Notes under the pieces: model-generated | Databases searched by the model: none | Seen by the model: only the letters and a program-made list of their open reading frames with translations | What the model was told of the DNA's origin: nothing | Origin: an uncultured Litoreibacter sp. | Lineage (GTDB): Bacteria; Pseudomonadota; Alphaproteobacteria; Rhodobacterales; Rhodobacteraceae | Assembly (NCBI GenBank): GCA_947501685.1 | Contig: CANMWQ010000002.1 | Coordinates: 248,001-312,000, forward strand | Direction of reading: 5' to 3' | DNA length: 64,000 nt | Shown: piece after piece, positions 28,423 to 42,767 of the stretch | How positions within the stretch are numbered: position 1 is the first letter of the stretch | Layout of the letters: each line of letters opens with the position of its first letter | Position numbers and translations under genes: made by a program

Positions 28423-30006
28423 TTAGGATTTTTTCGACGCGATATCCTGCATCCATACTTCCACGCGGCGGTTGATGCTGCGGCCGGCGCGGGTCTCGTT
28501 GCAGCCCAGTGGGGAAATTTCGCCAAAACCGACCGAACGCGCTTTGATGCGGGTCGCCAGCTCCGGGTGCTTCTCAAGCAGGGCTTTGCGGACCAGCTCT
28601 GCGCGTTGCAGGGCCAGCAATTGGTTCAGGTCAGCGCGGCCCACCGAGTCGGAGAAGCCCATGAAGTAGAACTCCTTATCAGCGTATTCCGCTGTGCTCA
28701 GCATCTCGCCAAGACGTTCCACATCGGCCTGCGCGCTGGCGTCCAGACGGCTGTTGCCTTGGGTGAAACGCACGGTGGTGCTGAGCCGGTCAGAGGCCAT
28801 CAGCATCGACAGCATGTTGCGGATCGAGCCAATATCGCCGTTCGCTTCTTTATGCAGCAGCAGCGTGGAGGCCACACGGGTGCCTTGCGCGTTCAGCGCC
28901 TCGCTGGAGATCGTTTGCCCCACGAAACCAGCCGCCGCGACCATCTTCTGGCCCTCTTCCGAGGTCACGTAGTTCACGAATTCCTCGGTGTGGCCGTTGG
29001 TGGTGCCGCTGGCTGAATACAGATACAGCGGACGTGTCAGCGGGTATTCACCGGTTTTAATGGTGAAGCTGGTCGCCGGTGTCCGCAAACCGCAAACGCC
29101 TTCGATGGCCAGCGGTTTCACGGTGTCGCTGGCATACACCATCGACGTGAAGCCAAACCCGTTCGGGTCTTTTGCAACGGCAGCGGCCACGTCGGCATCT
29201 GTCAGCAATTGGTTGGCATCAGGCGAAACCCTCTCGCGGTTGGACCGCATCAGCATTTCGTCAAACAGGCTGCGTGCGCCGCTGCCTTCTTCGCGGACAT
29301 AGACGTTGATCGGGGCGTCTTCGCCGCCCAGCTCGGACCAGTTCTTGATCTTGCCGGAGAAAATCTGAGCCGCCGCGGCCTCGGAAATGGCGCGCATGCC
29401 ATTGGCGTTGTTGGTCACCAGAAGCAGGCCATCATAGCCGATCACATGCTCATGTGCGACGCTACGCAGCGCCGGAATACCGCTGGCCTTGGCCGCGTTG
29501 GCCTCCGCTTCGCTGGCCGGGCGTGTTGTCAGCGCCAGACCGACTTCGCGTTTCACCAAAGCCTCAAACGCGGAGGTCGCGCCGGAAGAGGTCAGCGTCA
29601 ACGCGCCCTCGCCGATGCTTTCCGAATTCAGCTCATAGACGCGCTTCTCGGCGTCGCCTTCGGTCATGTCCGCAGAGCCGCCGATCGCAAGGGAGTAGCC
29701 AGCCAGAAGAGCAGGCATCAGGCGGTCTGTCAGCGTCGGGGAGCCGACAAGGGTGATTTCGTTATTGACCTCGATGACCGGGCAGGCGTCGCCGTTACAG
29801 GTCACCATATCCATGGCCACGCGCATCGTGCCGATGGAGGTCTCGATGACGTATTTGTCGTCCTCAACGCCGACCAGTTCGCCGCGCAGGCTTGTGTCGG
29901 AATTGGGCGAAGTCAACGTGACCTCGCCGGCCAGTGACGGGGTGGCTGCCAAAAACACGCTCATTGAGGCGCCTGACAGAAGAAGGGATAATTTTTTCAG
30001 GGACAT
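28423..30006 (-). CDS. Secreted PstS-like / OmpA fusion protein (copy 1)
   Basis: A 527-residue exported protein with three parts: a signal peptide (LSLLLSGASMSVFLAATPSLAG), a small N-terminal region ending in a CX4C pair (VTCNGDACP), a phosphate-binding-protein-like domain (HEHVIGYDGLLLVTNN, YVREEGSGARSLFDEML), and a C-terminal OmpA domain (GFSDSVGRADLNQLLALQRAELV, NRRVEVW) that should hold peptidoglycan. Start at MSLKKLSLLL behind GGAGACG. It is a paralog of the protein at 31280 with the same order of parts. Last gene of the block; likely a periplasmic sensor or scaffold. The ligand is not known. Confidence 0.85.
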   Translation of the reverse strand: MSLKKLSLLLSGASMSVFLAATPSLAGEVTLTSPNSDTSLRGELVGVEDDKYVIETSIGTMRVAMDMVTCNGDACPVIEVNNEITLVGSPTLTDRLMPALLAGYSLAIGGSADMTEGDAEKRVYELNSESIGEGALTLTSSGATSAFEALVKREVGLALTTRPASEAEANAAKASGIPALRSVAHEHVIGYDGLLLVTNNANGMRAISEAAAAQIFSGKIKNWSELGGEDAPINVYVREEGSGARSLFDEMLMRSNRERVSPDANQLLTDADVAAAVAKDPNGFGFTSMVYASDTVKPLAIEGVCGLRTPATSFTIKTGEYPLTRPLYLYSASGTTNGHTEEFVNYVTSEEGQKMVAAAGFVGQTISSEALNAQGTRVASTLLLHKEANGDIGSIRNMLSMLMASDRLSTTVRFTQGNSRLDASAQADVERLGEMLSTAEYADKEFYFMGFSDSVGRADLNQLLALQRAELVRKALLEKHPELATRIKARSVGFGEISPLGCNETRAGRSINRRVEVWMQDIASKKS

Positions 30007-30076
30007 GCTGCGTCTCCATATTTGCCCACGTTTTGGGGCGTTTTCGCTCATTACTCGGGGGGTGTGTGCTAAAAGG

Positions 30077-31057
30077 CTATCCATTTTTCTGCTTCGCCTT
30101 CTCTGCCTTGCGCCGTGCCTTCAGCGAATGGCCGTACACTTTCACATTCGGAATACCCGCGATTTCGTTGGCCATGAACCAATCGACTGTCGCCAGCGCG
30201 CCGTTGTTGCAATAGGTGATAACCTCGTCATATTCCCAATCGAGGCCCGCCTGTTTGATCTTAATGAAGATCGACAGATCATCTGCCGCCTTGCCGTTTT
30301 TGCCAGCGACAAGGTCCTCGGCATTCAGGGTAAAGGACCCCTCCAAGGACGCGTCTTCCATAATCTGGTGCAATGGCCGCGCATCCAGAAGCTGCGCCGT
30401 GCTGGTTCCGTCCAGAACCGCGTCAACATCTTCATGCGTCGCCAGCCACTCGTCATTGATAAAGGCCTGGGTGTCAGATTTGACGATCTTGACCTTATCC
30501 GTGGACATCTCGCCGCCGGAGGCCTTCCACTCGGCGATCCCGCCATTGAGGATGGACATATTGGTAAAGCCCGCCGTTTTCAGCGTCCAATAGGCGAAGG
30601 TCGCAAAGCCAAAGTTGCCCTTGGCGCCGCTGGAATGAACCAGCACGACGGGACGGTCATAGCTGAGCCCCATGGATTGCACCAATTTGGTAAAATCTTC
30701 TTCCGACGGGGTGGAGAGCGGATCGTTCCACAGCTTGCGGAATTTCGAGAACGGAACATTCACCGCGGTCGGGATGTGCCCCGCCGCGTAGCTGTAGTTC
30801 CAAAGGAAGGCCTTGGGCTGCCGGATGTCAACGATTTGCGGGTCGCCGATCTCCATCAGTGTTTTCAGATCTTCCGCGCCAAGCAATGGCGGCACCAGAA
30901 TTTCATCTTTTACGACTTCAGGTTCCGGCTCCTGGCCTGCAACCTGAAATTTCGCCGCGCGTCGAGCGGTTTGAGCGGCGAGGGAGCTTGTCATCATCCC
31001 GGCTGCTGCAAACGTCGCGACTCCCAATACGGCATCTCGGCGTGTCAAATTCTTCAT
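30077..31057 (-). CDS. Tat-exported tandem rhodanese (sulfurtransferase)
   Basis: A 326-residue protein with a Tat-like leader (KNLTRRDAVLGVATFAAAGMMTSSLAA) and two rhodanese domains. The first (IVDIRQPKAF, AGHIPTAVNVPF, LNGGIAEWKASGG) has HSSGAKG where a catalytic Cys would be; the second has Cys283 in YCNNGA, so only it should be active, the usual arrangement. Rhodaneses move sulfane sulfur. It lies between two PstS-OmpA paralogs, 70 bases upstream of one. Start at MKNLTRRD is chosen for the Tat signal. The C-terminal tail is lysine- and arginine-rich. Confidence 0.85.
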   Translation of the reverse strand: MKNLTRRDAVLGVATFAAAGMMTSSLAAQTARRAAKFQVAGQEPEPEVVKDEILVPPLLGAEDLKTLMEIGDPQIVDIRQPKAFLWNYSYAAGHIPTAVNVPFSKFRKLWNDPLSTPSEEDFTKLVQSMGLSYDRPVVLVHSSGAKGNFGFATFAYWTLKTAGFTNMSILNGGIAEWKASGGEMSTDKVKIVKSDTQAFINDEWLATHEDVDAVLDGTSTAQLLDARPLHQIMEDASLEGSFTLNAEDLVAGKNGKAADDLSIFIKIKQAGLDWEYDEVITYCNNGALATVDWFMANEIAGIPNVKVYGHSLKARRKAEKAKQKNG

Positions 31058-31279
31058 TGGTAATTCCCCAATCATGTGTATTGGGAAATCTCGCCTCCAA
31101 ATCCGTCCCTTCTGGGGCACCAATCTGTTGTTTTAGGGAATATTAACTTTGTTTCAGAGAGAATTGCGCGAATAGGCGGGGGATTGTGGCGAATCTAAGA
31201 CGTCAAGACTGGCCTGATCACAATTTTAGGCCTCGTTCGGCCTGAATCCCTGTCATACGAAGCCGCCTAAAAGGGCCAA
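31058..31279. other. Intergenic region between PstS-OmpA copy 2 and the rhodanese gene
   Basis: This 222-base stretch is A/T-richer than its surroundings. AGGCC at 31228-31232 and GGCCT at 31239-31243 form a small stem, followed on the minus strand by AAAATTG, a poor terminator candidate. A promoter for the rhodanese gene is likely here but cannot be placed. Confidence 0.35.
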
Positions 31280-32842
31280 TCAGCTATTGGCAGATTTCTC
31301 GATCCATACCTCGACCCGGCGGTTCATGCGACGGCCTTGCTCAACAGTGTTGCACGCGGTCGGCGCAACTTCGCCGTAGCCAGTATGGGTCATCGTCACA
31401 CCCTTCAAACGGTCGCCAGCAAACGCGACAAGCGCGTCTTTTACCTGCGCGGCGCGGCCTTCGGACAGCTCACGGTTCTTCGAAAACGACCCGACATTAT
31501 CCGAAAACCCGACGAAAACGATATTCGTGCCGGCGGGCATGGTCTCAAGATAGCTGGTGAGCCGCTCCATATCGACAGCCCCGCGCGCATCCAGCGAGGT
31601 GGAGCCGGTGCGGAACCGGAACGTGGTCGACAGGCGATCATGCTCTATCATCGACAAAAGCATCTTGTGGATGGTCTCCATCTCGTAGCCTTGCACGTTG
31701 GGGTTGAACATCGCACGGGCCCGCACGCCGTCAAGCGGCTGCGCGCGCACGGCGATATCAAAGTTGGTAAACCCGGCCTCTTTCAGCAAAGCGTCGGCCT
31801 CAGCTGAGGTGGCGTAGTCCAGAAACCCTGCCGCATCCTCGCTGAGCGTGTCGCCCCGGTTGTAAAGATACAGGCGGCGCTGAAACGCGTATTCTTCTGA
31901 CTTCGCGGAGAACGCGTCCGGGGTCAGCGTCATGCCGCATTCATTGACCAGTGCCATCGCCTGCGTGTCGCCATCAAACGCGGAGCTGACATAGCCCAAA
32001 GCGCCGGGGTTGGCGTTGACCATGGAAAGCGCGGCCTCTGAGTCGCTCGCGATCAGCGCATCTTGCGCAATAGCGGCGCGTTTGCCGTCGAACAGACCCT
32101 CTTCAAGGGCGTCGCGCAGGCCGGAGCCGTCTTCGCGCGAGACCAGCACAACCGGCAGGTCCGGCCCGCCAACACTCGACCAATTGGTGATCTCCCCGGA
32201 ATAGACTTTGGCCAGGTCGCTGACGCTGAGCGTTTTGACCGGGTTGGACGGGTGGGTGATGGCAACAACGCTGTCGACCGCAACGACATGTTCCTGCTCA
32301 AGCATATCCCCCGCGCCAGCACGGCTCAGATCGCGCGCTTCGGTGGTGGAGATTTTGCGGGAGGTCATCCCGATCTCTGCGGTGCCAGTGCGCAAGGCTT
32401 CGAACGCCTCCTCCGAGCTGGTGGAGGTCAATTGGTAATTGGCAATTGGGACGCCGTCCTTCTCGAAAACGGACAGGGTGGTTTGCGCACCCTCAACCTG
32501 CATATCAGCCGTCGCATTCATGGCGTTGGCGTAGCCTGCCAGCAGCTGCGGCATTAAGGTCATGCCAGCTGCATCTGCCCCGGCAATGTTAATTTGCGGC
32601 GTAACCCGAAGACAATCGCTGCCCGTGCAAGTGACCTGTGCTGCGGCCACGCGCATCTCGCCAAGTTCGGTGCGCACGGTGTAGTGGCCATCCGCGAAGC
32701 TGACGAACTCCCCCACGATATTCACGCTGTTATCGGCTGTGCTCAGGGCGATCTCGCCTGCAACGCCAAAGCTTGGCAGCAAGCTCGCCCCAAGCAGGCC
32801 CAAGGCACGTAGCGTTGAAGTCTTGGATGTGGAGATTGGCAT
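31280..32842 (-). CDS. Secreted PstS-like / OmpA fusion protein (copy 2)
   Basis: A 520-residue paralog of the protein at 28423: signal peptide (ALGLLGASLLPSFGVAG), a small region with a CX4C pair (VTCTGSDC), a PstS-like domain (EHVVAVDSVVAITHPSNP, SREDGSGLRDALEEGL) and an OmpA domain (GFSDNVGSFSKNRELSEGRAAQV, NRRVEVW). The identity between copies looks moderate, so the duplication is old. Binding to phosphate is possible, but these may bind another anion or only serve as sensors. It sits alone between 167- and 222-base gaps, with a probable promoter of its own. Confidence 0.85.
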   Translation of the reverse strand: MPISTSKTSTLRALGLLGASLLPSFGVAGEIALSTADNSVNIVGEFVSFADGHYTVRTELGEMRVAAAQVTCTGSDCLRVTPQINIAGADAAGMTLMPQLLAGYANAMNATADMQVEGAQTTLSVFEKDGVPIANYQLTSTSSEEAFEALRTGTAEIGMTSRKISTTEARDLSRAGAGDMLEQEHVVAVDSVVAITHPSNPVKTLSVSDLAKVYSGEITNWSSVGGPDLPVVLVSREDGSGLRDALEEGLFDGKRAAIAQDALIASDSEAALSMVNANPGALGYVSSAFDGDTQAMALVNECGMTLTPDAFSAKSEEYAFQRRLYLYNRGDTLSEDAAGFLDYATSAEADALLKEAGFTNFDIAVRAQPLDGVRARAMFNPNVQGYEMETIHKMLLSMIEHDRLSTTFRFRTGSTSLDARGAVDMERLTSYLETMPAGTNIVFVGFSDNVGSFSKNRELSEGRAAQVKDALVAFAGDRLKGVTMTHTGYGEVAPTACNTVEQGRRMNRRVEVWIEKSANS

Positions 32843-33009
32843 GTCGATATCCTCTGCGGCATAGCGTATTGATAAGGCGGCCCGAGGTGGGGCCGCGCTG
32901 AACCTACTTGCAGATAAAATTCATTCCAAAAGTGGCAAAAATTAGGGTGTATTCTTGTCTTTTTGGAGAATTGCCAAACCGCTTGTGGACAAGTCAGGCA
33001 AGCAACCGC

Positions 33010-33783
33010 CTACCGTGCTGCGCGGGCCCATGCCAAAGCGACCTCGGGCAAGCTGCCTTCTGCCGTGGCCATCACCACTTGCGCGCCTTTGAGGCTGACA
33101 AAATGCGCCAGTGACCCGCCCGGCAAAACGCCATCGAGCGTCACGATGCTATCCGCCGCTGTACCGCGCAACCGCATATGAGCCTGCGACACCGCTGCCC
33201 ATTTTGGTCCCAGCGCCTCAAGCGCTGCCGCCAAATCCGCATCCCCTTTGACGGGCGTGATCGCGCCGTCTGCGATCTGCGCATAGCCGCCGAGCACCTC
33301 GTAAAGATCACCCATCAGGGTCGAAACCGAGCCGGTCACGGCCACGGGCGGAGGCCCCAAAACCTTGCTCAAATCCTGTTGTCCCAGCCCTGCAGTCCCA
33401 GCATCCAAAGCTGTCGAAGCAGTCTGGCGCTTCACCGTCAAGACGCCCTCCGCTGCAAAGAGCGCGCGCAGGACGGTGGCGAGGGACTGCACAGCGTCAG
33501 TCTCGTCAACATTTACTGGCTGGCCAACCAGCCCTTCGGCCATCAAATCCGGTGACGTGTCGGCGACATGGCGCACCCGTTTGCCGCTGACTGCCAGCGT
33601 CACAAAGGAGGTCCCGACGGCGAACACCATATCCCGTGGCAGCATGGTCATGTCGATGGAACGCAGTATGGCTTGCGTCGTCTCGGGCGCTCCGGCGGGC
33701 CCCAGCACCATCGCGCCGTCCTCAAACACAGCATCTTGCGTCAGCGCCTCGATCTTGCCGCTCAGCTGTGGGTCATCGCTCAT
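33010..33783 (-). CDS. Protein of unknown function, coupled to roadblock-like gene
   Basis: I do not recognise this 257-residue protein. It has no signal peptide, no membrane segment and no cysteine-rich motif. It alternates hydrophobic strands and helices (for example MVFAVGTSFVTLAVSG, and ADSIVTLDGVLPGG near the end), which suggests a soluble alpha/beta protein; the C-terminal part loosely resembles the roadblock layout. Its start overlaps the preceding small gene by four bases (ATGA), so the two products probably work together. Confidence 0.7.
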   Translation of the reverse strand: MSDDPQLSGKIEALTQDAVFEDGAMVLGPAGAPETTQAILRSIDMTMLPRDMVFAVGTSFVTLAVSGKRVRHVADTSPDLMAEGLVGQPVNVDETDAVQSLATVLRALFAAEGVLTVKRQTASTALDAGTAGLGQQDLSKVLGPPPVAVTGSVSTLMGDLYEVLGGYAQIADGAITPVKGDADLAAALEALGPKWAAVSQAHMRLRGTAADSIVTLDGVLPGGSLAHFVSLKGAQVVMATAEGSLPEVALAWARAAR

Positions 33784-34115
33784 GCGCTGTCACCGCTGAT
33801 TGCCGTCAGACAGGCCTGCGCTGCCGGAACAAATGTCGTAAAATCGGTGCCGGGCGCGCAGATACAGCACAAGGCGTCCGACTGGTCAGCGGCTGAACGC
33901 AAAAAAACGTGAACATGGTCTGCGGTGGCGGCCATCGCGATCTGGCCCTCATCGAGAAGCAAAGCAGCCTCCGCGCAGAGCAGATTTAATGTGTCTTGGC
34001 TTTCAGGAGTATCGGCATTGGTGACCAGCACCATGCGTGTCGACAGATCAACAAAGGCGAGGGACTCGCATCCTTGGGTGTCATTGCACACCTTGTCCAA
34101 AGCGTCCTGAACCAT
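33780..34115 (-). CDS. Small roadblock/LC7-like protein (tentative)
   Basis: A 111-residue soluble protein. Its pattern (helix, then GCESLAFVDLSTRMVLVTNAD, a long helix LNLLCAEAALLLDE, then strands VHVFLRSA and CCICAPGTDF and a last helix) resembles Roadblock/LC7 proteins, which regulate small GTPases such as MglA. The match is by layout only. It sits 77 bases after two dynamin-like GTPase genes and overlaps the unknown gene at 33010. A GTPase partner role would fit but is inference. Confidence 0.55.
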   Translation of the reverse strand: MVQDALDKVCNDTQGCESLAFVDLSTRMVLVTNADTPESQDTLNLLCAEAALLLDEGQIAMAATADHVHVFLRSAADQSDALCCICAPGTDFTTFVPAAQACLTAISGDSA

Positions 34116-34192
34116 CGTGATCCCATACCAAAATCAACCGCCCCCTTTGGGTAATCCAAGTGACGGCGTTTGGGAAGGTCATTCGTGGCAGG

Positions 34193-35221
34193 TTAGGGCG
34201 CGGCGCTTTCGTCTTCGGCGGCCACGGCGGGGCTACTTCCGAAGATATTGTTCAGCGGCTCCCGAGCGGCGGCCAGTTTCGGAACCGGGCGACTGGCGCG
34301 CATCATGTCGATGACTTGCTCTTTCGTCTGCGGACGCGCCGGGCGGTCAGACCGCGCCCCGGAGGCATGCTGAATACGGCGTGGCGAAATGCGTGGCGCG
34401 CTGTCGTCAGACATAGCCTCGGCGGGGGCGATATCCTCCAGCGCCGTGGCATCTGGCGCGTCAATCGACGCGGTTTCGGACGCTGGTGCCGCCTGAACGT
34501 CGGGGGTCGAACTTGCAGCAGCACGCGGCGTTTGCGTTTGCCCCACGGCTTGGTTCAAATCGTCGATCATCTTGTTCAAATGTTCAAAGAACGCCCCGCC
34601 GCCGCTGGCCTCAAAGGCCTCTTCATTGTCGCCCGCATCCAGCGCTTGTGTCAGAGAGATTGGGAAAGTAGCGGCAAACAGGCCTTGGGTTTCCTTGTTC
34701 AAACGGGCCATCACGCGGAAGCGGTCACGCTCGTTGATCAGCTTGTCGAACCGGGTGACCAGCAGCACAGATTTTTCGCGCACGGCCTGCGGGATTGTCT
34801 CCCAAACGGCGGCCTCAGACTGGCGCCAGGCTTGGGTTGCGTGGGTGCACCACAGCACGGCGTCAACCTCATCCAACACGCGCTGCCACACCTCGGCGGA
34901 CATGTTGGGGTCAGAGATGCCGGGAAAATCAATCAGGTCGCAGGCGCCCAGAATGTCGGCCTCGAAAAACAGCCGGATCACGCGGGTTTCTTCAACGGAG
35001 ATACCCTCAAGCGCGTCAATCGAAATGGGCTCTTCAGTGCCGTCCACATCAATCCGGTAAGGGGCCTGTGTGCCTTGCGACATCCAGACCGGGGACAGCC
35101 GCGTGGCGGTGACCTTCTCTGGCAGCGGACGCGCGCCAAGCAGCAGGTTCGACAGTGTACTTTTGCCAGCGCTGAACTCGCCCATCAGGGCGATGCGGGG
35201 CTTGCGGTGGGTGGGGCTCAT
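34193..35221 (-). CDS. Dynamin-like GTPase (small)
   Basis: A 342-residue GTPase. The P-loop GEFSAGKST is at 14-22, the switch motif DFPG at 98-101 and TRFDK, standing in for T/NKxD, at 156-160. The GTPase domain ends near residue 215; the rest is low-complexity (Ala, Pro, Ser) with a short basic tail. GEFSAGKS is the pattern of bacterial dynamin-like proteins. Its ATG overlaps the stop of the larger dynamin-like gene by four bases, so the pair may form a two-part dynamin, as known for some bacterial systems. Localisation is likely at the inner face of the membrane. Confidence 0.85.
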   Translation of the reverse strand: MSPTHRKPRIALMGEFSAGKSTLSNLLLGARPLPEKVTATRLSPVWMSQGTQAPYRIDVDGTEEPISIDALEGISVEETRVIRLFFEADILGACDLIDFPGISDPNMSAEVWQRVLDEVDAVLWCTHATQAWRQSEAAVWETIPQAVREKSVLLVTRFDKLINERDRFRVMARLNKETQGLFAATFPISLTQALDAGDNEEAFEASGGGAFFEHLNKMIDDLNQAVGQTQTPRAAASSTPDVQAAPASETASIDAPDATALEDIAPAEAMSDDSAPRISPRRIQHASGARSDRPARPQTKEQVIDMMRASRPVPKLAAAREPLNNIFGSSPAVAAEDESAAP

Positions 35222-37383
35222 GCGGCCTCTCCTTTGTTGAGCGACGCTTTGGAGTGTGGGCGGGTCGGCCGTGCGGGCTGCGGATCGGGGTCTGCGATGT
35301 CCTCAACGTCGGAACCCACAGAGAACTCATCGAACAGCATGTCGAAAATGGCTTCGCGCTCTTCTTGTTCAGTGATGCCGAACAGGCCTTTCAGCTCGCC
35401 CACGGAGATCTGCGACTTGTTGCTGACATCGGTCAGGATACCGCCTTGCTCCAGCAGGAAATCCTCAAGCTGCGCCAGCGCGATTCGGCGAATTTCAGCA
35501 ACCTGCACGCTTTTCATGTCGTTCAGGATCGGCGCGGTTTCGGCCTCGATCAACTCGTAAAAGCTGTCGGCATAGGCGCGGTAGCCCTTGCGGCGCTGCC
35601 ACCAGCCTTTCCACCAAGAACTTTGCAGATCCAAAGCAATCGTCTGACCCAATGACACCGGCGGCGGGAAGCTTGGCGCGGTCGGCGCAGAGACAGAGAA
35701 CCCCTCCACCTCGATCGACAAGAGGTCGCGGTAAGTCACGGACAGATCGTCAGCCGCGGAATTCAGCGCGGCGACACAGGTGTTGGCAGTTTTCTTGCAC
35801 ATGGAGTGGTAGCTGGAGCGCAACAACATGCGCAGCCCCTCAGGGGAGTATTGCCACAGCTCCTTGTCGCCATGTTTCTCGAGATGTTGCAACAGCGACT
35901 CGAGCGCGCGGTCCAGGAATCGTTTATGGGCCTGATCAATCCGCGTCGTATACGCCTCAAACAGCGGTTTCAACGCGGCGTCGAGCCCGGCCATGTGACG
36001 GTCTTCGATCTCGTCTAGCCGCTTGGCCAGAACGGCAGGCTCCATCATCTTGAGGTCCTGATTGTCGATCCGCATCGACACGATATTGCTGGAGGCCCTC
36101 AGCCCGTGCAGATGGTTCAGCGCCCGCTTGCGCAGCGCGGTGATCATCTGCGCGCCTTCTCCGACACTGATCCGCTCGGAAATGGCGTCGTAAAGCGCGG
36201 GCATGCCGGACATGTCCCAGACATCAGCAGCAGTGATGGGCGCACCTTCTTCCAGCTTGGACTTGGCAAAGTTCTGCAAGGAAGCAGCGCTGTCAGGCAC
36301 CAGATCGTCGATGGTTTCCTGCAACGCCATATTCGCCCAATAGGCGGAGCCAAAGACCAGATGCAGCCCGCTTGGGCCGTTATTGTCGGCCAGCGTTTTC
36401 AGAATGGACTCGCGGATTTCGTCGATTTGCTCGGCGGGGTTCGGCAGCTCGTCGATACGGTTGACGAAGACCACGACCTCGCGCGAGTCGATATTGGAGA
36501 TCAGCCGGATCAGCCCCATATCCATGGAGCTCAGCGCCTGATTGGCCGACAGCACGACAACACAAATTCGGCTGCCGCGCAGCGCGTTGATCGTGATCTG
36601 CTCACGCATCATAAAGGTGTCATTCACGCCGGGCGTGTCGCGGATGCACAGCGGCATCGGCAGCGACGGGGCGTCCAGATAAAGATCAGCCGATTTCGTG
36701 ATATCGGCAAACTGGCCTTGGGCATCCAGCATCTCGGGGTCGCCAAAATCGTCGCCCATGCAGACATAGCGCTGCATCAGCTCTTCATCGAGATGGCGGT
36801 AATTATGGGTCTGACCCAACAGCAATTCGAATTTTCGGCCAAGACGCGCCTTGGTCTTTTCGCGCATCTCCGCAATCTGTTCGCGCACTTTGACCAGCTC
36901 TTCATCGGCCCCGGCGCGGCTGGACAGCTCGCCAATGCGACCGCCATTCTCTATCAGAAAATCCCACTCGTCCTTGTCAAAGAACCGGAACGACGCCACC
37001 GGGTCGTCCGCCTTGCGCCGGGTGTTGAGATGCAGGGACGTCACCACAGAGGTCCACGGGTTCACGTCAGCCGGCAGCAATTCGGGGCGCCCGGCGATGG
37101 CGTTGACCAGCGAGGTCTTGCCCGACTTGATCTGGCCAATCATCGTGATCGACGGTTCAAACTCATGGGCGGATTGAATGAGGGTCTCGGCCTTCTTCTC
37201 GGCCTCCCGGCCGCCGAAGCTCTCGATGTCGAGCAGCGCCTCTTCGAGATTATGCATGTTTTCGGCAAAGCCGTTCATCTGCTCAAGACCGTGCCGGGCA
37301 AAGGCCGGGGTCAGAGCAGGCTGCTGAAGGGGCATGGAGGCCTCAACGCCGGTTTCGTCACCGGCTGGAACATCGTCGATCAT
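35218..37383 (-). CDS. Dynamin-like GTPase (large)
   Basis: A 721-residue dynamin-family protein. P-loop GQIKSGKTS is at 83-91, DTPGVND at 249-255 and NRID at 308-311. After the GTPase domain comes a long helical part (roughly 400-700) with a segment LQSSWWKGWWQRRKGYRAY that could touch membrane. The 54-residue tail is acidic, then proline/arginine-rich. Bacterial dynamins bend or fuse membranes, and some protect against phage. A 158-base gap separates it from the P-loop gene upstream, so it may start its own transcript. Confidence 0.87.
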   Translation of the reverse strand: MIDDVPAGDETGVEASMPLQQPALTPAFARHGLEQMNGFAENMHNLEEALLDIESFGGREAEKKAETLIQSAHEFEPSITMIGQIKSGKTSLVNAIAGRPELLPADVNPWTSVVTSLHLNTRRKADDPVASFRFFDKDEWDFLIENGGRIGELSSRAGADEELVKVREQIAEMREKTKARLGRKFELLLGQTHNYRHLDEELMQRYVCMGDDFGDPEMLDAQGQFADITKSADLYLDAPSLPMPLCIRDTPGVNDTFMMREQITINALRGSRICVVVLSANQALSSMDMGLIRLISNIDSREVVVFVNRIDELPNPAEQIDEIRESILKTLADNNGPSGLHLVFGSAYWANMALQETIDDLVPDSAASLQNFAKSKLEEGAPITAADVWDMSGMPALYDAISERISVGEGAQMITALRKRALNHLHGLRASSNIVSMRIDNQDLKMMEPAVLAKRLDEIEDRHMAGLDAALKPLFEAYTTRIDQAHKRFLDRALESLLQHLEKHGDKELWQYSPEGLRMLLRSSYHSMCKKTANTCVAALNSAADDLSVTYRDLLSIEVEGFSVSAPTAPSFPPPVSLGQTIALDLQSSWWKGWWQRRKGYRAYADSFYELIEAETAPILNDMKSVQVAEIRRIALAQLEDFLLEQGGILTDVSNKSQISVGELKGLFGITEQEEREAIFDMLFDEFSVGSDVEDIADPDPQPARPTRPHSKASLNKGEAA

Positions 37384-37541
37384 AAAGCTTCCACCCTAAA
37401 ACAAGGTCTTTCTCAGTTACGTTTCACGAATCCCGGTCATTTTGACGGGATTGTTCTGGTCCAGAGGATAATGGCTCCTCCAACGCGACAATATTGCGGC
37501 GACAATTTGATATTTATTGGAAACCAAGGCGCGCAGGCACG
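37384..37541. other. Gap upstream of the dynamin pair, with a hairpin
   Basis: A stem forms from AATCCC (37429-37434) with GGGATT (37447-37452), continued by GTCA/TGAC past one unpaired G, leaving a three-base loop. There is no T-run, so it is not a simple terminator. It may be a leader structure or operator for the dynamin genes. The A/T-rich part nearest 37500 may hold a promoter. Confidence 0.45.
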
Positions 37542-38786
37542 CTAAGACGCCAGCATTTGCTGCATTTCCTGCTTGACCTGTACCATGACGCTGACGCTGT
37601 CGCTGGCGACTGTTTCGCTGGTTTCAAGCTGAATGAGCTGTACCAAATCAGCCGCATCCATCGCTGTTTCGCGCAGCTGTGCCATAGCGAGGTCATCAGC
37701 TTCGCCGCTTTCGGCCAGATAATCCGACAACCAGACCACGGTATCGACGCAGATATCCACGATCTCCCCATCACTCAGGCCGACATCGCTGAGCGCCTGC
37801 CCCATCATCGTGCCTTCGGCGGTCAATTGCGCCACAGCCTGCTCACACGCCTCGCGCGACACAGGCCCAAGGGACCGGGAAACCGGAACCTCAACCACAG
37901 CCTCAACCGGGGTCTCAGTCGGCACAGGAGCTTCGACGGGCGCGGGCGCGTGTGCTTCCGGGTCAAACGCGATTTGGCGCAGGAAAATGTCGGCCTGATC
38001 GCGCGCACCCTGATGCCCGGTCTCAACCATGCGCAGGATCGCCGAGATCACAGCCATCCCGCCGGAGCTGCGCAGCATGTCTTTGTCGACCGTCCCATCT
38101 AAATTACGGGCCGCGATCGCGGACGTCGTGCCAATTGGCAGCACCTGCCGGAACTGGTCTTGCATGACATAGACCGCCCGATCAACGCGGCCCGGATAGG
38201 CCTCTTCGACCGCGGGGTTGTCGGCATGAGTCATCAGCAGGAACGCATGATCCTGCAACGCCGCGGGCATCTGTGCCCAAAGAGCCTGCTCGTCACGACC
38301 AAACGCGCCCTTGGAGCACCAAAGCGCCACGTCGCTGCGTTTGGAGGCCCAGCTCATCGCGCGTTGTTGTTCGCGCAGGGACGCACCCGCGCTGACCTCA
38401 AGGATGGAAATTTTCTTCAGCGCCGGCAGCGGCATCGTGGCGTCCACAAACGCCGGCTTCAAGGCGGTGATCGCCCGCATGTCATCCATTGGCAGGGCCT
38501 CAAGCGTGCCATCGGGCAGCGTGCAATTGGCAACTGCCGCGTCACCATAGCTCAGTTGCAGCGTGGGCAGTTTCGTCTTTCCGGGCAGCACATCCGCGCC
38601 TGCCAGAAAGTTCAGTATCTGCGACTTGCCGCTGCCCGGAAGGCCGAAAATGGCCAGCCTCACAGGGCGTTCAATTTGATCGAGGATCGCCTGCGCGCGG
38701 GCTTTCAGTGGCGCGCTCAGACCCGCCTGCGCAATAGCGCGGCGCAGATCACTGACACCGTCACGGGGCGGCGCAGCCTGTGTCAT
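37542..38786 (-). CDS. P-loop NTPase, degenerate GTPase-like
   Basis: A 414-residue protein with a clear Walker A (FGLPGSGKSQILNFLAG, P-loop at 48-55). The later GTPase motifs are weak: ILEVSAG stands where DxxG would be and THADN where NKxD would be. A Pro/Ala/Val-rich linker (about residues 275-300) leads to a helical C-terminal region. It overlaps the PP2C gene by four bases, so it belongs to the kinase-FHA-phosphatase operon. It may be a third, partner GTPase of the two dynamins or a regulatory NTPase. The family is not recognised further. Confidence 0.7.
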   Translation of the reverse strand: MTQAAPPRDGVSDLRRAIAQAGLSAPLKARAQAILDQIERPVRLAIFGLPGSGKSQILNFLAGADVLPGKTKLPTLQLSYGDAAVANCTLPDGTLEALPMDDMRAITALKPAFVDATMPLPALKKISILEVSAGASLREQQRAMSWASKRSDVALWCSKGAFGRDEQALWAQMPAALQDHAFLLMTHADNPAVEEAYPGRVDRAVYVMQDQFRQVLPIGTTSAIAARNLDGTVDKDMLRSSGGMAVISAILRMVETGHQGARDQADIFLRQIAFDPEAHAPAPVEAPVPTETPVEAVVEVPVSRSLGPVSREACEQAVAQLTAEGTMMGQALSDVGLSDGEIVDICVDTVVWLSDYLAESGEADDLAMAQLRETAMDAADLVQLIQLETSETVASDSVSVMVQVKQEMQQMLAS

Positions 38787-39736
38787 CGGGGCGCGCCCAC
38801 GGCGACTTTGGAGGGGGCATCCTCTTCGGGAGATGCGGCGTCCTGGTCTTTCTTGACCTCATCAAGATGCACCACGCGGGTCGAGTTGGCGGCGGCATGA
38901 TCATCCGCATCCACCGGCTTGGGCGCAATCGCGCGTTCCATCGGTTTGTTATGGTTCAGCTTGATCACCGCGAAGGAGACATTGTCCTGGTCCGGGTCTG
39001 CCAGCGCCTCGATGGCGGCCAGCAAGTGGCCCGCAATTTCCGCGCTTTTGCGGCGGCGGTAGCGGTGCAGGATCTGCTTGATTTTGGTTTCTTCAAGATA
39101 TTGCAACCCGTCGCTGGACACCACGACGATGTCGCCAACCTGCACCTCAAACGGGGTGTTGGGACAGTCCGACTTGGCCACGCGCCCGCCCAGAATAACG
39201 GATGTCAGCGCATTGCGGTCCGGGTGGTTCTTGGCCGCCTCCGCGTCCAACAGGCCTTGCTTGGCCATGAAATCAATCTGCGGTGCCATCGAATGATCTT
39301 CGTTGAGCTGCTTCAGCTTGCCAGAGCGGAAATGATAGAGCGGGCTGTCGCCAATCGACATCCAGAACATCCGGTTCTCAACCAGCACCAGCGACACCAG
39401 CGTGGCCCCCATGCCGCGCACGGCAGGGTTGTCGGACACATGGTCGCTGACCGCCAGATTGGCCTGCGACGCAGCATTTGCCATCAGGTCGGGAATCTTC
39501 TTCTCTTGCTGCACGAAATTCGCGCTTTGGAATTTCAGCTCGGAGAACACTTCGGTGACGACAATCTTGGAGGCCACGTCACCAGCGGCATGGCCGCCCA
39601 TACCATCGGCCAACACGACCATTCCGGTATCGGTGCCAAAGGGAAAGTCGGTGATGATGGCGTCTTCTTGATAGTCACGCCCGCCCTGACAAATCGCGGA
39701 AGCTACGTCGAATCTTGGTTCAGGCGATCGCCACAT
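38783..39736 (-). CDS. PP2C-type Ser/Thr protein phosphatase
   Basis: A 317-residue metal-dependent phosphatase. The PP2C motifs are in order: GGRDYQEDA, LADGMGGHAAGDVAS, GMGATLVSLVL, WMSIGDSPLY, VSSDGLQYL and DNVSFAVIKL. The catalytic domain fills the first 240 residues; the tail is charged and disordered. Start at MWRSPEPRFD, behind GAGGAGAG, overlaps the end of the FHA gene by 17 bases. With the kinase and FHA protein it would reverse threonine phosphorylation, like PppA of type VI secretion regulation. Confidence 0.92.
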   Translation of the reverse strand: MWRSPEPRFDVASAICQGGRDYQEDAIITDFPFGTDTGMVVLADGMGGHAAGDVASKIVVTEVFSELKFQSANFVQQEKKIPDLMANAASQANLAVSDHVSDNPAVRGMGATLVSLVLVENRMFWMSIGDSPLYHFRSGKLKQLNEDHSMAPQIDFMAKQGLLDAEAAKNHPDRNALTSVILGGRVAKSDCPNTPFEVQVGDIVVVSSDGLQYLEETKIKQILHRYRRRKSAEIAGHLLAAIEALADPDQDNVSFAVIKLNHNKPMERAIAPKPVDADDHAAANSTRVVHLDEVKKDQDAASPEEDAPSKVAVGAPR

Positions 39737-40592
39737 CTTCGCTCTCCTCTGGGTTGGACCCGTCGTTCCAGTTGAATTCCGCTGTGCAGAGGGCCACGAA
39801 ATGCAGCGTCGTTTCACCCAGCTTGATCTGGTCACCCGTAGTGAGCGTTTCGTTTGAAATCACCGGGGTGCCGTTTAGTCGCACGATATTCTTCTTGCCG
39901 CCATGGCCCAGCATAAAGCTGTGCGTTTCGGGGTCATAAACAACAGCGGCGTGGTTCACGCGCGAGATCGAATTGTCGCCGAAATCAAGCTTGATCGCCT
40001 GATCATCGCCACGGCCAATCTCTGACATACCAGCCTCAAGGGAGAAGCATTCGCCACGGCCCGGACCCTCGACAACAAGCAACCAGCCAACCGGGAACTT
40101 GGCGCGCGCAGCGCCGGTTGCTTTTTCCGCCGTGTCAAACATGGAAACGACGTCGCTTTGCGGGTTGTCGAACCCCAGAACGCGGGTCTGGTTGCGACGG
40201 CGGCGTGGTGATGGGGCAGCTTCAGGCGTCGCGGCAAGCTCAGGCCCGTCATCTTCAATGTCCCAAATGTTGACCGGTGCCGCTGGCATTGCGGCCTCCT
40301 CCCCCACACTGGCGTTGATTTTCTCAAGGATATCGGCGGCGGCTTTCGCCTCTTCTTCAGCAGCTTTCGCCTCCTCTTCAGCGATTTGCGCCATCGCTGC
40401 AGCTTCCACTTCCGCAAATTTGCGTTCTTTTTCAGCCTCTTGGGCGCGCAATTCCTCGGCAGACAACATGTTGGGGCGCGTGTCCAGCGGCACATCTTCC
40501 TGCGGAGCAATGTCCACAACTGTGCGCTCTACCTCCTTGGAGGCCTCGGCCTTGCTGGCCTTGCGGGAAAGAAAGTTACGAAAAAAGCTCAT
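39720..40592 (-). CDS. FHA-domain protein with coiled-coil segment
   Basis: A 290-residue cytosolic protein. Residues 45-90 are rich in Ala, Glu and Lys and should form a coiled coil; a basic patch (SPRRRRNQTR) follows near 128. The FHA domain, which binds phosphothreonine, covers about 165-275: SEIGRGDDQ, NSISRVNHAAVVYDP and KNIVRLNGTPV. It lies 24 bases after the kinase stop, and the PP2C start is inside its end. It is the likely phospho-reader of this system, joining the kinase to other partners. Confidence 0.9.
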   Translation of the reverse strand: MSFFRNFLSRKASKAEASKEVERTVVDIAPQEDVPLDTRPNMLSAEELRAQEAEKERKFAEVEAAAMAQIAEEEAKAAEEEAKAAADILEKINASVGEEAAMPAAPVNIWDIEDDGPELAATPEAAPSPRRRRNQTRVLGFDNPQSDVVSMFDTAEKATGAARAKFPVGWLLVVEGPGRGECFSLEAGMSEIGRGDDQAIKLDFGDNSISRVNHAAVVYDPETHSFMLGHGGKKNIVRLNGTPVISNETLTTGDQIKLGETTLHFVALCTAEFNWNDGSNPEESEDVAIA

Positions 40593-40616
40593 GATCTTGC
40601 CTCTAAGTGATTGGCG

Positions 40617-42767
40617 CTAAACGCTGCCGTTGTAAGTGTAATATGCGACCCACATGGAGCCATCGCGGGAGACCGCGAAACTGAACTCGTCGGTGCCGTT
40701 TTCCAGCTCTCGCGTGAAAATGCTCGGCAGCGAAGTGCGCTCAATGACCGGCTCGGAGGTGCTCATATAGGCGATCAGCTCGTCGCCGATCTGCAGTTCG
40801 GTTTCGCCCTCGGCAATGGCGGTGACGCGGGTCGTCCACGCCTCTCCGTTAAAGCGGGTCATAAAGACGGTGCCGTCGCCCAACTGAGTTTCCTGAATGA
40901 TTGCAGGCTCCCACTCCACGGTGCTTTCAGCGCCACCACGTTTGACAGTCAGCTGCATCGGTTGAGACACCGCGTCTTGCGGCGTGGCGCTGGCGCGCAA
41001 AGCCTCGTCAAACTCGATCATATTGGAGACCGGAGTGCCATTGACCGCGACAATCTCAGTACCTGCGCGGGCCCAGTCGGGGGCGTCGCCGGTCGCTTCG
41101 GTGATGCGGGTGTTGTTGGCGCCGGTGGTAAAGGGTTTCTCGACACTCCAGTTGGATTGCAGCACGGGTACGTCTGCGGCAACCTCTGCCTGCGCGGCGG
41201 CCTCAACTTCGGCGGCTTGTACTTCTGCCAGACGCTCTGCCTCTGCGGCAGCCTCAGCTTCGGCGGCTTGTGCTTCAGCCAGACGCTCTGCCTCTGCGGC
41301 AGCCTCAGCTTCGGCGGCCTGTGCTTCAGCCAGACGCTCTGCTTCCGCGGCAGCCTCAGCAGCTGCAACTTCGGCGAGGCGCGCGGCCTCGGCCTCCTGT
41401 GCGGCAATCGCTTCGGCTGCGGCAATCTCTTCCAGACGGCGGGCTTCGGCGGTGGTCGCTGCTTGCACAATGGCAAGCTGAGCGGCGGCTTCGGCGGCTC
41501 TGATCTGCTCTGTAGCGGCAAACCTTGCGCTTTCCGCAACGCCCTGCATCGGCGTCCACTCAAAAGCGGGCGCGGTTTCAATGGTTTCGATAACGGCTGG
41601 CTCTGGCGCTGCGGCTTGCACGACAGGGGCGGGCTCAAGCGTTTCAACAGGGGCCACGGCGGCCTCTTGTGTCGTCGTTCCCGTGGGCAGGTAGCCCGCG
41701 AAATACAGGCCCCCAACCGCCAGCAAAGCCACGGCAGCAACCGAGCCAAACAGCGCTACCAGACCGGGTTTGCGCTCTGCATCAAGCGTGGCGGCGGCTG
41801 CCGAAGACAGCGGCGCGGTTTGAGATGGAACACGCGACAGCTGGCGCGATTGGTTCAGCATGGCGACCCATTCGTCAGCCGATTGCATCCGGTCTTTCGG
41901 CAGGATGGCCAGCGCCTTGTCGATGGACAGCAGGAACTTGCGGTCGAACCCTTTGATCCGGTCTGCCAGCGGTTCGTAAATGTCCTTGTCGCCGGCCGCA
42001 ATCGCGGCCAGACGGGCTTGGCTGTTGGGGGGCAGCTCGCCGTCAATCAGGTGGTAAAAGCTGGCGGCCAGTGCATAAAGATCGCTCGCAGGCGTCTGCG
42101 GGCTGCCTTGCACATAGAATTCCTGCGGGGAGTACCCGTCCTTAACGACACGCAGCGCTGACAGCACGCGGGTCTGTTTGCTGGCCTCTTCGCGCGCAGC
42201 ACCAAAATCAATCAATACGGGGCGCATGTCACCATCCAGCAGGATGTTATCTGGCGAGATATCGCGGTGCAGCACGCCCCGGTCATGGACGTATTGCACA
42301 GCGCCCAGCACATCGCGCAGGATGCCTTGCACCTGCAACCCGGTCAGCCCGTGGTCAGGATCGTCGAGTGTGTCCAGAAGATCGCGCCCTTCGACAAAGT
42401 CGAGGACCATATAGGCGGTCTGATTCTCTTCAAACACCTCATGCACGCCGACAATATTGGGGTGATTCATCTTCGCGAGGCTACGCGCCTCTTGGATAAA
42501 CAGCCCGACAATCGCACGCAATTCGTCGGTATGCGCGTCAGAGCGCGCCTGAACGAGGGCGCGGCTACGATGACAAAATGCGGAAGGGAAACATTCCTTG
42601 ATAACCACCTTACGATCAAGGCTATTGGTCGCAAGATAGGTGATGCCGAAGCCGCCGGAATTCAGAAAGCAGTTGATCGTATACTGGCCGTGCAGCAGTT
42701 TCGTACCCGGTCGCAGCTCGTCGAGATAGCTTTCAGACTGATCGTCTTTGATCTGTGCGTTGCCCAT
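40617..42767 (-). CDS. Transmembrane Ser/Thr protein kinase with coiled coil and PDZ-like domain
   Basis: A 716-residue kinase. The catalytic domain (about 28-300) has the glycine loop NSGGFGITY at 36-44, Lys57, HRDISPDN at 168-175 and DFG at 187-189. A single membrane helix lies at about 335-358. Outside it come an Ala/Glu-rich coiled coil with three 17-residue repeats, then a PDZ-like domain (AGTEIVAVNGTPVSNMIEFDEAL) and a beta-rich C-terminus. It would sense the periplasm and phosphorylate cytosolic proteins. Start at MGNAQIKDD; the frame is open 14 codons upstream. First gene of the operon. Confidence 0.92.
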   Translation of the reverse strand: MGNAQIKDDQSESYLDELRPGTKLLHGQYTINCFLNSGGFGITYLATNSLDRKVVIKECFPSAFCHRSRALVQARSDAHTDELRAIVGLFIQEARSLAKMNHPNIVGVHEVFEENQTAYMVLDFVEGRDLLDTLDDPDHGLTGLQVQGILRDVLGAVQYVHDRGVLHRDISPDNILLDGDMRPVLIDFGAAREEASKQTRVLSALRVVKDGYSPQEFYVQGSPQTPASDLYALAASFYHLIDGELPPNSQARLAAIAAGDKDIYEPLADRIKGFDRKFLLSIDKALAILPKDRMQSADEWVAMLNQSRQLSRVPSQTAPLSSAAAATLDAERKPGLVALFGSVAAVALLAVGGLYFAGYLPTGTTTQEAAVAPVETLEPAPVVQAAAPEPAVIETIETAPAFEWTPMQGVAESARFAATEQIRAAEAAAQLAIVQAATTAEARRLEEIAAAEAIAAQEAEAARLAEVAAAEAAAEAERLAEAQAAEAEAAAEAERLAEAQAAEAEAAAEAERLAEVQAAEVEAAAQAEVAADVPVLQSNWSVEKPFTTGANNTRITEATGDAPDWARAGTEIVAVNGTPVSNMIEFDEALRASATPQDAVSQPMQLTVKRGGAESTVEWEPAIIQETQLGDGTVFMTRFNGEAWTTRVTAIAEGETELQIGDELIAYMSTSEPVIERTSLPSIFTRELENGTDEFSFAVSRDGSMWVAYYTYNGSV
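41231..41383 (-). repeat. Three 51-base tandem repeats inside the kinase gene
   Basis: Units begin at 41231, 41282 and 41333 (each GACGCTCTGC-like on the plus strand) with period 51 bases, coding for 17 residues of the form AEAERLAEAQAAEAEAA. The first two are nearly identical, the third diverges. They form part of the predicted periplasmic coiled coil and could vary in number between strains. Confidence 0.8.

Follow-up and report, generated by a model that had tools for sequence, protein, structure and literature searches.

A conserved kinase, FHA, phosphatase and dynamin gene cassette in Rhodobacteraceae and a possible phospho-switch for membrane remodelling

A stretch of 64,000 nucleotides from an uncultured Litoreibacter sp. 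(contig CANMWQ010000002.1, positions 248,001 to 312,000; hereafter the window) contains at 28423-42767 a block filled by eleven open reading frames (ORFs), all on the minus strand, which were labelled K, F, P, A414, D721, D342, R111, U257, PO1, Rho and PO2. The first eight form a conserved core in which a Ser/Thr kinase, an FHA protein and a PP2C phosphatase are encoded together with three dynamin-superfamily proteins and a protein of predicted roadblock fold. We consider it somewhat probable that this core acts at the inner membrane as a phospho-switch for a dynamin-like pair that remodels membranes.

Conservation of the gene block

The distribution of the cassette was examined in a sample of the order comprising 244 genomes from 100 genera, and matches to D721 (E<=1e-5) were found in 83 genomes and 35 genera. 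Gene order was compared in 120 mutually related loci, consisting of 40 neighbourhoods fetched from the order sample and the best 80 of 500 relatives with organism names. The eight core genes were colinear on a single strand in the order K-F-P-A414-D721-D342-R111-U257 in 77 of these loci. A further 23 loci fell in a class cut by locus or contig ends, including three with rearranged cassettes (L065, L118 and L119), and 20 deviated, mostly because no K adjoined F (Rhodobacter/Tabrizicola types), LysM genes displaced K, U257 was not found or the locus was of a minimal type. Since the eight genes occur in order in 77/120 relative loci, they are clustered more than expected by chance. A preliminary description of this DNA, made from its letters and ORFs, had proposed one system of eleven leftward genes; all eleven genes were recovered in the ORF list and co-occurrence across relatives was confirmed for the eight-gene core, with PO1, Rho and PO2 being optional secreted partners.

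The spacings between consecutive genes (in bases, overlaps negative) are K-F 24, F-P -17, P-A414 -4, A414-D721 158, D721-D342 -4, D342-R111 77, R111-U257 -4, U257-PO1 167, PO1-Rho 204 (counted from the chosen ATG of Rho) and Rho-PO2 -8. The four overlaps within the core are identical in a distant Leisingera plasmid. Pfam searches of the window returned the kinase, FHA and PP2C families, two dynamins, two PBP-OmpA fusions and one rhodanese, and no family above cut-off for A414, R111 or U257. Relatives of these three proteins were annotated as 'hypothetical protein' in three plasmid records, except that the gene at the A414 position in the Ruegeria record was annotated as a dynamin family protein. 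Neither promoter-like sites (3, where shuffled sequences averaged 4.3) nor terminator-like sites (21, against a mean of 14.9 with a standard deviation of 4.0) were used as evidence.

In two wider samples, for which three or four candidates per genome were scored, D721 was found in 2/289 genomes at E<=1e-20 and in 4/299 genomes at E<=1e-12, in both cases confined to the window's own family, which consists mostly of marine bacteria. Fourteen genomes of one genus (g4) retain the cassette, and plasmid copies occur in 18 records from Leisingera, Ruegeria and Rhodobacter. In the window's genus D721, K and a PO1-type gene are all present in one genome (G059) and all absent from three (G096, G209 and G219). 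G096 offered no clean empty insertion site: the flanking FAA and IDH genes remain adjacent there but are convergent, and the best FAH match is on a different contig, among genes matching 1-21 kb of the window.

Kinase, FHA reader, dynamins and roadblock protein

The kinase K (40617-42767, 716 aa; Pkinase 105.6 bits) consists of a kinase domain, one transmembrane segment called by hydropathy alone (about 41706-41762), an Ala/Glu-rich linker and a weakly PDZ-like periplasmic end, and its homologues keep HRD in 30/31 and DFG in 31/31 cases. The Ser/Thr kinase of the preliminary description was confirmed, and its PDZ-like outer domain found weak support (15.3 bits against a cutoff of 27, and 18.3 bits in a close relative). 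K-type kinases (E<=1e-40) were present in 81 of the 244 genomes and D721 in 83, with both in 76 (Fisher p = 3e-48, uncorrected for kinship).

Several genomes have a single D721 and multiple K-type kinases, as would be expected if many inputs share one output. They are found in up to five places in G175, in which the core locus has no K adjoining F and K-LysM-LysM, K-F-P and kinases ending in a hydrophobic segment are located elsewhere; parts of this pattern recur in G155, G171 and G243, which belong to the same genus. A second, lone K-type kinase also lies in the window's own genome outside the window (contig 2, 86359-87528; L194:7372-9303), in a frame of 644 codons that is 52% identical to K over the matched part. 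Because of this scatter in G175, its genus mates and the window's genome, several kinases may feed one core.

F (39720-40592, 290 aa; FHA 27.9 bits, cutoff 20.7) has a variable, low-complexity N-terminal part and a C-terminal FHA domain, and was detected by hmmscan and missed by the FHA search of its own genome at E<=0.001. Its homologues keep the FHA 'GR' in 35/35 and an 'SR.NH'-like segment in 32/35 cases. In the variable linker just N-terminal to the FHA domain lies a motif, TR[VL][LI]GF, mostly preceded by lysine (KTR), which reads TRVLGF in the window (40170-40187) and is by its conservation a candidate phospho-threonine site. TR[VIL][LVI] occurs anywhere in the protein in 33/35 F homologues and stands in register in the printed rows of the alignment. 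Because this Thr sits at a conserved spot next to the FHA domain a phospho-switch is suggested, for which GarA and OdhI are a precedent. A strict DNA pattern for the motif matched F alone in the genome and revealed no other FHA client, a weak negative since the pattern is blind to AGR and TTR codons. The phosphatase P (38783-39736, 317 aa; PP2C_2 45.3 bits), whose gene overlaps that of F, keeps DGMGGH in 36/36 homologues. Its C-terminal tail contains TRVV (38870-38881), which resembles the motif of F; in the printed rows 11 of the 12 P homologues that carry TR[VIL][LVI] are close relatives, and the twelfth carrier is not among these rows.

D721 (35218-37383; Dynamin_N 49.6 bits) is a large dynamin-like GTPase of the BDLP1/DLP1 kind. 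The motifs G1, G3 and G4 are present in 41/41 homologues, and its best matches in the PDB were 2j68 (BDLP1) and 5owv_A (Cj-DLP1, E = 3.5e-10), followed by the mitofusin Fzo1. C-terminal to the G domain is a strongly conserved LGQTIALDL...WWxxWW stretch, a candidate lipid-binding tip, and judged by length the protein has room for a neck/trunk stalk. D342 (34193-35221; Dynamin_N 39.4 bits) is closest to Cj-DLP2 (5owv_C, E = 8.1e-19) and also has G1, G3 and G4 in 41/41 homologues; about the first 225 residues are well conserved and are followed by about 115 variable, low-complexity residues. This tail contains PRRI (34373-34384), the window's form of a candidate docking motif P[RKA]R[VI], which was found in 37/41 D342 homologues, whereas each of the other seven core families had between 0 and 6 homologues with it.

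The third protein, A414 (37542-38786), had been described as a P-loop protein beside two dynamin-like ones. The two dynamins were confirmed, and A414 itself belongs to the same superfamily: a comparison of A414 with D342 by hhalign gave 99.9% and E = 4.5e-34, and an A414 homologue in L066 scored 34.9 bits for Dynamin_N (cutoff 27), with the A414 of the window remaining below the cutoffs. It is a paralogue of D342 with an eroded G3, since Walker A was seen in 30/37 homologues and a G3-like DxPG in 5/37, and is a candidate pseudo-GTPase.

Adjacent genes for a large and a small partner with intact G motifs and sequence kinship liken the D721-D342 pair to Cj-DLP1/Cj-DLP2 of Campylobacter jejuni (PDB 5owv), which according to PMC6104087 form a 2:2 complex that tethers liposomes and in which both partners are needed for GTP hydrolysis. 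The pair of the window differs from it in that the DLP2-like partner is too short for a stalk, that a third, eroded DLP2-like paralogue is present and that the genes are embedded in a kinase-FHA-PP2C-roadblock cassette. From this family membership, membrane remodelling by the core may be inferred.

R111 (33780-34115) is confidently assigned a roadblock/LC7 fold on the basis of its predicted structure. The AlphaFold2 model (pLDDT 93.1, pTM 0.83) has the order helix, two strands, helix, three strands, helix, and Foldseek matched it to the Streptomyces roadblock 3kye with a probability of 1.00 (TM 0.77-0.81), with LAMTOR and MglB, also at probability 1.00, among the best 50 matches. At the sequence level no Pfam roadblock match and no PDB match up to E 10 were obtained, so that the roadblock-like protein of the preliminary description is upheld by the structure prediction. 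For U257 (33010-33783; two alpha/beta parts, pLDDT 76, pTM 0.53) the roadblock matches in Foldseek mostly had probabilities of 0.7-0.96 with E values of 0.2 or more, and the best match of any kind (E = 0.068) was not a roadblock protein; U257 is possibly roadblock-like.

In the minimal loci L067, L068, L069 and L070, D721-D342 stand beside a small conserved protein (family A6) that is roadblock-like by eye, and a second dynamin pair is present in L068 and L069. No K, F or P was seen in the stretch read of these loci. Profile comparison of R111 with A6 gave no significant match, and A6 had no PDB match up to E 1.

Secreted partners and neighbouring genes

Three further genes complete the block. 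PO1 (31280-32842; PBP_like_2 113.3 and OmpA 37.8 bits) is a PstS-like and OmpA fusion, secreted by eye, that we regard as an optional input partner. Rho (30077-31075; Rhodanese 84.3 bits in two stretches) has by eye an N-terminus resembling twin-arginine (Tat) signals and is a sporadic accessory, paired with a second PstS-like and OmpA fusion, PO2 (28423-30084; PBP_like_2 107.6 and OmpA 36.9 bits). PstS-OmpA fusions in general (E<=1e-30 to PO1) occur in 186/244 genomes, mostly as one copy, and the PO1-type genes are a smaller subgroup of them.

That the PstS-OmpA and rhodanese genes might be an independent envelope operon merely adjoining the core, which would be compatible with a phospho-switch made up of the eight core genes, is a possibility we regard as doubtful. 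It would fit the 167-base gap before PO1, the presence of Rho-PO2 near the core in only 4/120 loci (L074, L077, L116 and L117, with flanks of at most about 10 kb, some of them cut) and the finding of PO1-type genes at a large distance from the core in several genomes of g4. Against it speaks the distribution of PO1-type genes (over 380 bits, this cut-off and that for close D721 being set after the scores were seen): linked or unlinked, they are present in 19 of the 21 genomes with a close D721 versus 2 of the other 223 (G060 and G240), and of the two close-D721 genomes that lack one, G106 carries three LysM genes in its cassette instead and G237 has no K match.

The partners follow the type of kinase. 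Among 87 loci with a scorable K a strict hydropathy cut gave 52 kinases that are transmembrane with a long outer part and 35 without (the short-kinase class, defined as having no transmembrane segment followed by a long outer part), with partners (PO1, PilJ, LysM or Rho-PO2) in 22/52 and 1/35 loci, respectively. When L097 and L118, which lie just under the cut, are counted as transmembrane the numbers become 54 and 33, and partners stand beside K in 23/54 versus 0/33 loci (Fisher p = 2e-6, uncorrected for kinship). Close to the C-terminus of four of the 33 short kinases (L046, L050, L056 and L150) lies a moderately hydrophobic segment that may anchor them in the membrane, and the transmembrane loci with no partner are mostly from Yoonia and its kin. 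The PilJ-like proteins, secreted by eye, occur in 16 loci, and Pfam confirmed the four that were tested. In a tree of D721 (71 chosen rows, quick method, midpoint root, long branches flagged) the short-kinase type forms one side of a single branch with a support of 83, which is under the starred level; since the outer branches are also of the transmembrane type, this type may be the older one. Thus the secreted genes look like an exchangeable input layer. The coupling of periplasmic state to membrane remodelling that had been proposed suits loci like that of the window. However, one clade whose short kinases have no periplasmic part keeps the same dynamin core and has no secreted partner in 33 loci, and periplasmic sensing is therefore one exchangeable input rather than a constant function.

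In Rhodobacter-like genomes a MotB-type gene directly follows the cassette (L131:14262-15239, MotB_plug 70.9 bits; L134:14371-15231), and by eye flagellar hook genes are also found after it. The source organism is probably phototrophic, because its genome carries photosynthetic reaction-centre genes (PF00124; contig 2, 10551-11309). Photo_RC was commoner in genomes with the cassette (49/83 versus 54/161 of the others, p = 2e-4); inside variable genera the lists, read by eye, showed no clear trend, and the association was provisionally treated as one of kinship and not of function.

The proposed switch and its alternatives

In the phospho-switch that we favour, the targets of K would be the Thr in the TR[VL][LI]GF motif of F and, in close relatives, also that of TRVV in the P tail. 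The resulting phospho-Thr would be bound in cis or in trans by the FHA domain of F and reset by P. F, whose N-terminus is amphipathic by eye, would recruit or release the dynamin pair at the membrane, with A414 as a non-hydrolysing regulatory partner. R111 and U257 would serve the GTPases as scaffolds or as regulators of the roadblock type, perhaps acting via the P[RKA]R[VI] tail of D342. Peptidoglycan-associated periplasmic proteins would set the kinase in loci of the window's type, and other lineages would rely for this input on LysM or PilJ proteins or on kinases that are short or tail-anchored. When the envelope is disturbed, the inner membrane would be fused, divided or stabilised as a result. 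The gene set, its coherence and the folds are established by sequence and model, and the direction of signalling, the phosphosites and the membrane effect are inferred.

Several findings weigh against this scheme. Some genomes are in both sets of loci and the loci and genomes are related, so that the counts are not independent, and the PO1-type and close-D721 cut-offs were chosen with the scores in view. The TR motif of P is present in only 12/36 homologues, and TR[VIL][LVI] is also found in 7/31 K and 7/41 D342 homologues (as well as in 5/41 of D721, 3/37 of A414 and 3/34 of R111, and in none of U257 or PO1). By length and alignment D342 is too short for a DLP2-like stalk, and the targets of R111 and U257 could lie elsewhere. 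K is present and D721 missing in five genomes (G008, G009, G060, G133 and G142); one of them, G060, has K-F-P-PO1 beside a contig end and no D721 match anywhere in the genome. Conversely, seven genomes have D721 without K (G019, G063, G088, G094, G159, G210 and G237), and in the stretch read G019 and G063 (L068 and L069) have dynamins and a small roadblock-like gene only. Input and core can therefore each be lost from the other, and a partial core can occur where the phospho-module is missing.

Two of the genomes with K and without D721 deserve separate mention. In G133 (L196:3965-12927) a decayed-looking cassette contains K, F, P, PilJ and a PO1 fragment, with the kinase region split over two frames and no dynamin, and is adjoined by transposase-like ORFs. 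In G009 (L197:4694-11429) two very large K-like kinase frames of 1220 and 822 codons lie near ORFs that are FHA-like by eye, apparently a different kinase-FHA system.

One alternative is a GTPase signalling switch of the conservon or MglA/MglB kind, in which roadblock proteins regulate the dynamin-like proteins and no membrane is remodelled. In these systems a sensor kinase, a roadblock protein and a GTPase are encoded in one operon, as here, and the predicted fold of R111 is closest to a Streptomyces roadblock, with MglB and LAMTOR among its best 50 matches; the reduction of D342 to a G domain with a variable tail, the degenerate paralogue A414 and the kinase input would also agree with such a switch. 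However, a Ser/Thr kinase takes the place of the histidine kinase-like CvnA and dynamin-superfamily GTPases that of the Ras-like ones, and Pfam found no Ras-like small GTPase, CvnA or DUF742 match in the window's eleven proteins. D721 is moreover long, with strongly conserved positions past its G domain that include the Trp-rich segment, and matches BDLP1, DLP1 and Fzo1. We consider this alternative unlikely.

An anti-phage or conflict system built on dynamins and a kinase seems more unlikely still. The Leo dynamins are not known to have kinase, FHA, phosphatase or roadblock genes with them. In PADLOC, K matched PD-T4-6 at 5.7e-44, and there were partial matches of D721 to LeoA (2.8e-11) and of D721 (1.1e-6) and D342 (3.9e-6) to LeoBC, and the patchy distribution (83/244 genomes) and the plasmid copies would suit defence. 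LeoABC of E. coli are likewise bacterial dynamins encoded together (PMC4159319). But K matched 34 PADLOC models, like any generic kinase, F, P, A414, R111 and U257 matched none, and among the core proteins Pfam found no nuclease or other killer domain. The retention of the cassette in 14 g4 genomes also speaks against such a role, and secreted peptidoglycan-type partners and a phosphatase are unexpected for it.

That a type VI secretion system with its genes elsewhere is under the control of the K-F-P trio is very improbable, and the link was rejected for the window's genome: the trio, confirmed by Pfam, resembles the PpkA-PppA-Fha threonine phosphorylation pathway, in which a kinase, an FHA protein and a phosphatase are encoded together (PMC3953482), and the sheath family was found in 29/83 cassette genomes versus 37/161 others (p = 0.0497), but here dynamins and a roadblock protein stand in place of secretion genes, and the sheath family (VipB, PF05943; the one type VI family searched) is absent from the whole genome of the window, as had been stated for this neighbourhood, and from 54/83 cassette genomes.

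More broadly, and with less confidence than for the phospho-switch of the window itself, we tentatively propose a bacterial class of signal-gated dynamin machines, with a conserved core (a DLP1/DLP2-like pair, a pseudo-GTPase and roadblock regulators), an FHA phospho-threonine relay, changing kinases and plug-in envelope sensors. If this is true, prokaryotes would have in such a machine a counterpart to the receptor-kinase and Ragulator-like control of membrane GTPases. In the open-licence PMC literature no description of such a cassette was found, nor any bacterial paper that joins dynamins and roadblock regulators in one system, and to our knowledge the switch that turns bacterial dynamins on is mostly an open matter. 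The cassette genetically links a dynamin pair and a roadblock protein to a phosphorylation module complete with writer, reader and eraser, with sensors that vary by lineage. As cultured relatives exist, for example in Leisingera and Yoonia, it offers a tractable entry to the signal control of bacterial membrane remodelling.

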